64,000 nucleotides of DNA from Terriglobia bacterium (lineage in GTDB: Bacteria > Acidobacteriota > Terriglobia > Acidiferrales > UBA7541), in contig JAIMAG010000005.1 in assembly GCA_023512135.1 (NCBI GenBank), positions 87,001-151,000 of the forward strand, written 5' to 3'. The position numbers and the translations under genes are program-made. Every line of letters begins with the position of its first letter. Position 1 is the stretch's first letter. Below, piece after piece: positions 12,158 through 32,710 of the stretch. A model generated the notes under the pieces. That model had not been told where the DNA came from and ran no database searches. It saw only the letters and a program-made list of their open reading frames with translations.

Positions 12158-12412
12158 CGGGTGGCCGGCAGGGGACGGACGCGGATCGCGAAGCCCGTCC
12201 GCACCACCTGCAGGTAAGAGGGAAGGCCGTGCAAATCGGCCGCGGTCCCGCCACTGTGATCGGCCGGCGCTGTGGTTGAAGAAAACACCCACTGCTCCCA
12301 TGCCGGGAGCGGGAAGGGTCGCTTCGAAGATTCAGTTTCGGAGGCACAGCGCCCGCGTCCCGCGCAGCACGCCGCGGGAGGCCGTCAGCCAGGAAACCTG
12401 CCCGGCCGGAGC
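12158..12412 (+). promoter_or_regulatory. Cobalamin riboswitch upstream of btuFCD
   Basis: The conserved core is easy to see: AGGGAA at 12219-12224 leading into GCGGTCCCGCCACTGT at 12242-12257, and the B12 box AGCCAGGAAACCTGCC at about 12387-12402. GGCCGGCAGG at 12164-12173 can pair, with one bulge, with CCTGCCCGGCC near 12397-12407 to close the aptamer. The RNA should bind adenosyl- or aquocobalamin and lower expression of the uptake genes behind it. The 441 bases between the NTF2-like gene and btuF hold this element and the terminator and no other gene. Confidence 0.92.
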
Positions 12413-15539: not shown

Positions 15540-15712
15540 AACGGCCGGTGCTCGGGGAAGACGGTGGGAATCCGTCGCCGCCGCGCGACTGTGAAGCGGC
15601 CTGTCCGCGCAAGAACCGGACAGAAAGCCCGGCACAGTCACTGCCCCGCCACGCCGGGGTGGGAAGGCTGGGCCGACCGGGGCGAGCCGCTAAGCCAGGA
15701 GACCGGCGAGGT
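15540..15712 (+). promoter_or_regulatory. Second cobalamin riboswitch, upstream of the TonB receptor
   Basis: GACGGTGGGAATCCGTCGCC (15560-15579) and GCGACTGT (15585-15592) form the core, and AAGCCAGGAGACCGGC at 15692-15707 is a near-perfect B12 box. GCCGGT at 15544-15549 pairs exactly with ACCGGC at 15702-15707 to close P1. No T-rich terminator follows, so control is more likely translational than in the first copy. The 347 bases between btuD and the receptor contain only this element and the hairpin described next. Confidence 0.9.
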
Positions 15713-19696: not shown

Positions 19697-20170
19697 ATGG
19701 CTACATTGCAGGTGGGCCAGAAAGCCCCGCTGTTCTGCCTGCCGAATGACGACGGTACGCAGGTTTGCCTGAAAGACTTCGCAGGCCGGCGCGTGCTGCT
19801 GTTTTTCTTTGTCAAGGCGAACACGCCGGGTTGAAACCACGAAGCGTCCGAGTTTCGCGACGCCAAAAAGGAATTCGACGCCCTGAACACCGTCATCCTG
19901 GCCTGCAGCGCAGACCCGCCCGCCGCCCTGCGCAAATTCCGGGAAAAACTGAAGCTGAACTTTCCCCTGCTGAGCGACCCGGACTTTCGGGTCATCGAAG
20001 CCTACGGGGCCCGGCGCATGAAAAGTTTTCTGGGAAAATCGTTCCTGGGTATCGTGCGCAGCAGCGTGCTGATCGGTCCGGATGGGCGGATCGAGCACGT
20101 CTGGGAGAAGGCTCCGGCGAAAGGCCACGCCAGCCAGGTGTTCGAACGACTCCGGCAACGGAACTCGTAG
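19697..20170 (+). CDS. Probable selenocysteine-containing peroxiredoxin (BCP/Prx family)
   Basis: 157 aa if the TGA at 19832-19834 is read as selenocysteine (residue 46). The frame is the same before and after it. The start is ATG 19697 with GGTGAGGAG upstream. The sequence before the TGA, KAPLFCLPNDDG...VLLFFFVKANTPG, and after it, NHEASEFRDAKKEFDALN, align with the peroxiredoxin pattern TPGCxxE, where the missing cysteine is the peroxidatic residue. Position 51, where BCP-type enzymes place a resolving cysteine, is Ser, so this would be a 1-Sec enzyme that relies on an outside thiol. It should reduce hydrogen or organic peroxides in the cytoplasm. A hairpin suited to SelB follows the UGA. 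It converges on panC. Confidence 0.85.
19844..19863 (+). promoter_or_regulatory. bSECIS-like hairpin inside the peroxiredoxin gene
   Basis: GCGTC (19844-19848) pairs with GACGC (19859-19863). Inside, CGA (19849-19851) pairs with TCG (19855-19857), leaving a GTT loop (19852-19854) and one bulged C. The loop begins 17 bases after the UGA. A short loop opening with G at that distance is the described form of a bacterial selenocysteine insertion element. Confidence 0.7.
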
Positions 20171-31221: not shown

Positions 31222-31434
31222 CGTTTCTCCTTTTGCAAATTCTGGCGAGAGATTCGGTCGCATTCTTGATGAATAGAAAGCAGGCGTCAAGCGGCGCCAC
31301 CGCAGCCGTTACGCAAACAGCACCCTTTTCTTTGCATCAGCGTTCGAACCGAAGGGGGCGCAAAATCTGAAGAAGCCGTGAAACCTTTTGCTTGGAGATG
31401 CATCTACTGGGGAAACAGAGCCCGGGAGGTTGTG

Positions 31435-32118
31435 ATGCCGTTCGGGAACAAGTACACCGGGATGGCCGTTACGGTTCTGCTGGGCGTGCTCGTCGCGGTC
31501 GCTGCGGCACAGCAGCTCCCACCCTCCACGAACGCGCCGAGGGTTGGCGACAAGGCCCCGGACTTTACCCTGCCCGATACCAACGGACATCTGGTCAAAC
31601 TGTCCGACCTGCTGAAGACCGCGGATGGAAAAGGCCAGTGGGTACTGCTGGTGTTCTACCGGGGCTACTGGTGACCGTACTGCAACTCCGAGTTGCGGAG
31701 TATCGAAGAACACAGGCAGCAGATCGAATCCCGGGGCGTAAAAATCGTGGCCATCAGCGTGGATCCACCGCAGGTCACAAAAGAACACGCGGCCAGGCGC
31801 GGCTACAGCTTCCTGTTTCTCGCGGACGAAACGCTGGAGGTCATCGGCCGCTACGACCTGGTGCACAAAGGGGGATCGGGCAGCTCCGACATTGCCCGCC
31901 CGGCCGAATTTCTGCTCAACCCGCAGGGCGTCGTCCGCTGGCGGAACTTGACGGAAAGCTACCGCGTCCGTGCGAAAGGCGAACAAATTCTGGAAGCCCT
32001 TGACCGTGCTGGTGTCCCTGCTGCCGGCCCGACCGAACCGAACGAGAGCAGGGGAGATCGAAACGCTGCTCCGAATCGCTCTCCGGTTGCGCCACCAGTT
32101 CCCGTGCCAGCAAGGTGA
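31435..32118 (+). CDS. Probable exported selenoprotein, peroxiredoxin-like with a UxxC motif
   Basis: 227 aa if the TGA at 31672-31674 is selenocysteine (residue 80). The start is ATG 31435, five bases after GGGAGG. A signal peptide (MAVTVLLGVLVAVAAAQQ) precedes a thioredoxin-fold domain: GDKAPDFTLPDTNGHLVKL, then LVFYRGYW-U-PYCNSELRSIEEH. In relatives this reads FYRGxWCPYC, so the UGA replaces the first, redox-active cysteine of a CxxC pair and Cys83 remains. After it, the frame continues with VKIVAISVDPP and FLLNPQGVVRW, as in AhpC/TSA proteins. It should reduce peroxides or disulfides outside the cytoplasm. The 25 C-terminal residues are not conserved. A DUF442 gene follows by 73 bases. 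Confidence 0.87.
31680..31698 (+). promoter_or_regulatory. bSECIS-like hairpin inside the exported selenoprotein gene
   Basis: CTGCAACT (31680-31687) pairs with AGTTGCGG (31691-31698) in eight pairs, one of them U-G, around a CCG loop. The stem starts five bases after the UGA and the loop 13 bases after it. This is slightly nearer than the usual range and the loop G is last, so the fit is good but not perfect. Confidence 0.6.
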
Positions 32119-32191: not shown

Positions 32192-32710
32192 ATGAAACAA
32201 CAGTTTCTCCGACTGTTCGGAGCCGTGCTGCTGCTGGCAGGAATCGCAGTCGCACAGCAGCCCAGTTCGATCCGCAATTTCTTGCGGGTGAACGAAAAGG
32301 TCTGCACCGGCGGGCAGCCCACCATGGAAGAGCTGGCCGCGCTCAAAGCGCAGGGTATCCGCGCCATCATCAACCTGCGACAACCGACGGAATACAACGC
32401 GGCCGAGGAAGAAGCAAAAGTGCGCGAGCTCGGCCTGCGCTACATCCATATTCCCGTCAACACCGCCGACCCGAAGCCCGAGCAGGTGGACGAATTCCTG
32501 CGCGTGACCGACGACCCGGCCAACCAGCCGGCCTTCATCCACTGCGGCTCGGCCAACCGGGTCGGCGCCTTCTGGATGATCCGGCGCGTGCTGCGCGACG
32601 GCTGGAGTCTCGAAGAGGCCGAAAAAGAAGCGCGCAAAATCGGTCTGCGCAGTCCGAACCTGTACGAGTTTGCGCTGGACTACATCCGCCGCCACCAGAA
32701 GGCGCCCTGA
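32192..32710 (+). CDS. Secreted DUF442-type phosphatase-like protein
   Basis: 172 aa from ATG 32192 with GGGAGGGGAAG upstream. A signal peptide (LFGAVLLLAGIAVAQQ) leads into NEKVCTGGQPTMEELAALK, typical of DUF442/tyrosine-phosphatase-like proteins, then INLRQPTEY and the P-loop IHCGSANRVGAFW. The catalytic Cys and Arg are both present. The substrate is unknown. Its position behind the exported selenoprotein suggests a shared transcript; both proteins act outside the cytoplasm. Confidence 0.82.
   Translation: MKQQFLRLFGAVLLLAGIAVAQQPSSIRNFLRVNEKVCTGGQPTMEELAALKAQGIRAIINLRQPTEYNAAEEEAKVRELGLRYIHIPVNTADPKPEQVDEFLRVTDDPANQPAFIHCGSANRVGAFWMIRRVLRDGWSLEEAEKEARKIGLRSPNLYEFALDYIRRHQKAP

Follow-up and report, generated by a model that had tools for sequence, protein, structure and literature searches.

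Does the in-frame TGA that interrupts this gene end its product or is it read as selenocysteine (Sec), and what would the complete protein do? The frame extends from an ATG at 31435 to a TGA at 32118 on the forward strand of the window (here, the whole 64-kb stretch of DNA analysed), comprising 228 codons, i.e., 227 residues plus the stop. Its sole in-frame break is the TGA at 31672-31674 (codon 80), within FYRGYW-U-PYC, and the sequence agrees in this with the first-pass annotation, which had described a 228-codon frame broken only by a TGA at the first Cys position of a CxxC-type motif. The features of the locus are as follows.

31424-31429, forward strand: GGGAGG, candidate Shine-Dalgarno sequence 5 nt before the ATG (from the sequence; a G-rich stretch also lies 5' of the ATG in a same-genus relative).
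31435-32118, forward strand: selenoprotein gene encoding an exported-looking, peroxiredoxin (Prx)-like redoxin of 227 residues with Sec80 (from the sequence, a Pfam AhpC-TSA match of 109 bits and an AlphaFold model).
31435-31509, forward strand: putative signal peptide or N-terminal anchor, residues 1-25, with K6, a hydrophobic core and a cleavage-like site at A23-A24-A25 (read from the sequence by eye; helix 7-25 in the model).
31672-31674, forward strand: TGA codon 80, almost certainly read as Sec (the codon is TGA at 42 of 43 phylum loci and TGC at the remaining one; 17 Bacteroidota relatives have TGY).
31672-31683, forward strand: UxxC active site, U80-P81-Y82-C83 (50 aligned sequences).
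31685-31701, forward strand: SECIS-type apical hairpin, stem ACUCCG/CGGAGU and loop AGUUG (31691-31695), the loop 16 nt after the UGA (pair counts in 34 sequences; published bacterial SECIS model).
31897-31905, forward strand: R155-P156-A157, conserved Arg and Pro at the thioredoxin-type position (alignments).

Homologues were counted down to a limit of E <= 1e-30. Relatives appeared in 24 of the 95 genomes of the order and in 19 of the 396 sampled genomes of the phylum (the window's own genome is counted in both), for a total of 43 loci in 42 genomes. The TGA is found at exactly codon 80 in all of them except L033, from genome G003, which has TGC, and a codon kept at the same place in 42 of 43 loci is not there by chance. 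The homologue comparison proposed by the first-pass annotation has therefore turned up TGA at that codon rather than a different stop or an arbitrary residue. Relatives from Bacteroidota (n = 17), which are more distant, have TGT or TGC at codon 80, although the search that retrieved them was made with a pattern that had Cys at this position and is biased towards Cys forms. Over the 50 aligned sequences residue 80 is always Sec or Cys and residue 83 always Cys, so that Cys83 is kept as had been claimed. In a quick tree, for which the root was not inferred, the phylum sequences group together and the Cys sequence is nested among them, a topology that fits a single Sec-to-Cys change on the L033 lineage. 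The genome of this Cys form, 75% complete, has selA and gave no tRNA-Sec above the cut-off.

The least improbable alternative to Sec is that the TGA is a true stop, leaving a 79-residue product, or that the gene is degraded or a pseudogene, and we consider it very unlikely. The standard code does end the frame at 31672, and a standard gene caller closes the gene at codon 79, which makes mis-annotation likely both here and for the relatives in 40 other genomes. Against this, 41 genomes retain the TGA at this one codon, and comparison with the same-genus locus L065 gives a dN/dS of ~0.18 for the part before the TGA and of ~0.17 for the part beyond it. With a ratio this low past the TGA, the downstream part is read as protein, and purifying selection on the protein persists beyond the TGA. 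The Sec machinery and a covarying SECIS element (both below) also speak against a stop. A sequencing or assembly error turning TGC or TGT into TGA might be suspected from the Bacteroidota relatives with TGT or TGC at this place, but L065 comes from a separate same-genus MAG (genome G048, 82% identity) and carries the same TGA, as do 39 further genomes, which argues against an error to the point of refuting it. The conserved TGA in relatives and the dN/dS values together rule out the pseudogene, the true stop and the sequencing error. Genome-wide reading of UGA as another amino acid, e.g., Trp, has a negligible probability, with no point found in its favour and against it an anticodon-TCA tRNA that is a tRNA-Sec by covariance model, the alignment of the UGA with Cys and not Trp in homologues, and the presence of selA, selB, and selD.

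The source assembly (2.83 Mb, 97% complete) contains the Sec machinery that the first-pass annotation had wanted to see: tRNA-Sec (74 bits by covariance model, anticodon TCA), selA (572 bits), selB (395 bits, on the same contig as the gene and ~4 kb before the window) and selD (371 bits). This selD has an in-frame TGA of its own, in AAG-U-AAK, corresponding to a UxxK site, and is itself a gene with Sec. The selA gene is widespread in this bacterial order, being above the cut-off in 82 of 95 genomes. It is above the cut-off in 20 of the 23 order genomes that carry the TGA gene, and the remaining three, only 55-65% complete, have tRNA-Sec above the cut-off. Two separate observations concern the machinery genes. 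Four genomes (G067, G071, G086, and G091) show two-piece selA matches within a single open frame, which suggests an insertion in their SelA protein, and a redoxin gene without TGA is found ~0.8 kb from the tRNA-Sec gene (L001 and L093, G000:C13:16887-18080).

The conservation of the RNA around the TGA is best seen in the 34 sequences of the main group, which hardly vary over the first 29 nt counted from the TGA, even at most synonymous sites. A helix formed by nt 14-19 and 25-30 (31685-31690 with 31696-31701), with AGUUG or AGUUA as loop, is paired in 95% of cells of the 34-sequence alignment; three of its pairs have changed on both sides, with a covariation score matched by none of 500 shuffles. 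A change of Ser TCC to Leu CTC is always paired with one of Arg CGG to CGA (4 of 4 cases), and because all four sequences form one clade this compensatory change is probably a single event. All 34 sequences use TTG or TTA for the Leu codon of the loop, whereas these two codons make up 89 of 524 Leu codons in the rest of these genes. The published model of bacterial SECIS elements has a loop of 3-9 nt, a stem of 4-16 bp, a G in the first two loop positions, a distance of 16-37 nt from the UGA and an energy of -7.5 kcal/mol or lower (PMC13188914). The element described here agrees with it throughout (5-nt loop, 6-bp stem, G in second position, 16 nt from the UGA, -8.5 kcal/mol).

A different structure had been put forward in the first-pass annotation, an eight-pair hairpin that does exist (31680-31687 with 31691-31698, -9.4 kcal/mol, z about -1) and that, in the window sequence alone, is slightly more stable than the SECIS-type one (-9.4 vs. 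-8.5 kcal/mol). However, it is not the structure that evolution has conserved: some of the 34 sequences disrupt the pairing at five of its eight pairs, and its CCG loop, 13 nt from the UGA, is outside the published model, the SECIS-type helix being kept instead. The local fold at the TGA is unexceptional compared with shuffles. A SECIS model built from the family recovered with confidence only this gene in the genome, and is thus family-specific and cannot list other selenoproteins. The Rfam search of the 64-kb window found no family at the selenoprotein gene. The same search located two cobalamin riboswitches elsewhere in the window (12197-12401 and 15555-15704, forward strand).

Seven more distant relatives (L032, L058-L062, and L064) have CUGCAAGGUUUGCAG, with the SECIS-type loop 8 nt later, so that the position of the element seems to have shifted within the family relative to the main group, and L063 may represent a third arrangement. 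The Cys homologue L033 has two of its six stem pairs disrupted and C-C in place of the loop G-U, and the family SECIS model found nothing in it at E <= 10. An alternative hairpin (-10.6 kcal/mol) can fold ~8 nt further down, and the idea that this Cys variant lost its SECIS is therefore only partly true.

Taken with the conserved TGA and the selection past it, the Sec machinery and the SECIS covariation support what had first been an inference, translation of UGA80 as Sec, which we regard as almost certain. SelB with Sec-tRNA(Sec) would decode the codon by means of the SECIS hairpin inside the coding sequence, with its loop 16 nt downstream. Other candidate selenoprotein genes are present in the same genome. 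One is in the window itself (19697-20170, forward strand), a PrxQ/Bcp-type peroxiredoxin with a TGA at 19832-19834 and Sec as residue 46 in NTPGU (TxxU), in which GAGUUU follows the TGA with a spacing equal to that of the GAGUUG loop in the gene at 31435-32118. A third Sec peroxiredoxin candidate (L085, G000:C48:101038-101418) is exported-looking and has TGGU at the peroxidatic site.

The hydrophobic N-terminus reported by the first-pass annotation is present as described and, judged by eye, is signal-peptide-like, which suggests that the product is exported. Many relatives have three N-terminal hydrophobic segments with positive-inside charges that would place the domain outside. The product would be either exported or kept on the outside of the membrane by its N-terminal helix. 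The following gene (32192-32710, forward strand) encodes an exported-looking, phosphatase-like protein (Pfam PTP-NADK and BLH_phosphatase matches, HCGSANRVG), and the order of the two genes is kept in the same-genus L065. An operon link between them is weak, since the gap in this relative is a few hundred bases.

The protein has a fold of the peroxiredoxin type, matched by Pfam AhpC-TSA and also Redoxin (78 bits), and the AlphaFold model (mean pLDDT 89.7) places Sec80 immediately before helix 81-92. Best PDB neighbours in a fold search with this model were PrxQ/Bcp and AhpE peroxiredoxins, ResA coming further down, and by sequence the nearest PDB entry is likewise a PrxQ thiol peroxidase. When aligned with PrxQ proteins, Sec80 falls at the Thr/Ser place of T/SxxC and Cys83 at that of the peroxidatic Cys. 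The peroxiredoxin signature, PxxxT/SxxC plus a catalytic Arg, was looked for and only Cys83 fits it, with R76 standing for Pro, Sec80 for Thr and P156 for Arg. The "peroxiredoxin-like" of the first-pass annotation consequently stands for the domain and the model and falls for the peroxidase signature, and we have not filed the protein as a peroxiredoxin, the Pro, Thr and Arg being missing. Opposite P156 (38 of 39 sequences of the phylum set), two PrxQ proteins have Arg and ResA has Pro; the neighbouring R155 is invariant in the phylum set (39 of 39) and missing in the relatives from Bacteroidota. The protein has no chalcogen redox residues besides Sec80 and Cys83, as it contains no other Cys, so that an internal catalytic cycle needs a Sec-Cys bond.

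It is on this account that we favour a thiol:disulfide oxidoreductase over a peroxidase, a preference that we hold as likely without being firm. The best explanation overall, and probably the correct one, is an extracytoplasmic, Prx-like thiol:disulfide oxidoreductase with Sec80 in its active site. With export, redox direction, substrate and electron donor as we infer them, the Prx-type thioredoxin-fold domain would use Sec80 as attacking nucleophile and Cys83 as resolving residue: the Sec80 selenolate would attack a substrate disulfide, resolution by Cys83 would give a Sec80-Cys83 selenenylsulfide, and a reductant outside the cytoplasm, e.g., a relay of CcdA/TlpA type, would restore the reduced enzyme. 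A CcdA/DsbD-type membrane protein does adjoin a TlpA-like redoxin in the genome, and this pair is a possible electron source. The same selenoprotein could otherwise be mainly an exported peroxidase boosted by selenium, with Sec80 attacking peroxide and Cys83 resolving. This second function is unlikely, although it is the alternative that survives best, favoured by a predicted fold that ranks peroxiredoxins (PrxQ/AhpE) above ResA-type oxidoreductases, by the PrxQ enzyme as nearest PDB sequence and by the two further Sec peroxiredoxin genes in the genome. The replaced signature residues count against it, as does the location of Sec at the Thr position and not at that of the peroxidatic Cys.

Selenoproteins of this general kind are already known, and to call an exported UxxC protein rare, as was done at first, was overstated, since published lists already include the UxxC Prx-like selenoproteins as a family (PMC13188914, PMC2398784, PMC1794560). 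The Sec form of the Prx-like thiol:disulfide oxidoreductase (PF00578, UxxC/UxxU, example WP_010940744.1; PMC13188914 Table 1, PMC2398784, PMC1914089 Fig. 3), "Prx-like 1" of the GOS survey, resembles the window protein, by description, in the AhpC-TSA domain, in having Sec first in UxxC and in its predicted redox role, and the window protein does have a PF00578 domain with Sec in UxxC. However, Cys homologues outnumber Sec forms in the GOS set (2,740 to 225), whereas all but one of the 43 phylum hits in this analysis are Sec forms. The Redoxin family selenoprotein (PF08534, UxxC) and "Prx-like 3" of GOS, also likened by description, share the UxxC and the Redoxin match, but AhpC-TSA fits the window protein better. 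No NCBIfam model reaches its cut-off for this protein, which for that reason could be filed under none of them. The SelL-related redox protein NF040769 shows weak similarity over residues 40-142 (49.4 bits, cut-off 120). PrxU and other TxxU peroxiredoxins share the Prx-type fold and an active-site Sec, but their Sec is the peroxidatic residue, while in the window protein it comes three residues earlier with a Cys in that place (44 bits against the PrxU model, cut-off 270). ResA-type thiol-disulfide oxidoreductases, with ResA itself extracytoplasmic, have a CxxC-type site in the same place and a Pro at the matching position, but the score is low (NF002854, 60 bits, cut-off 170) and the fold model is closer to peroxiredoxins.

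The family is of interest on several counts: Sec dominates its distribution, distant relatives carry the SECIS at a shifted place, a Cys variant occurs naturally, and the active site is a hybrid. We tentatively propose, as a conceivable but doubtful reading, that these genes may constitute a subfamily of seleno-redoxins that belongs to this phylum and is separate from the UxxC Prx-like proteins already published. It would be outward-facing, with Sec nearly obligatory, the SECIS loop 8 nt further down in early-branching relatives, one lineage changed to Cys, and a Prx fold combined with thioredoxin-type catalysis. The family offers a natural test of Sec versus Cys within one redox scaffold, and likewise of the ways in which a SECIS hairpin may change its place within a coding sequence.
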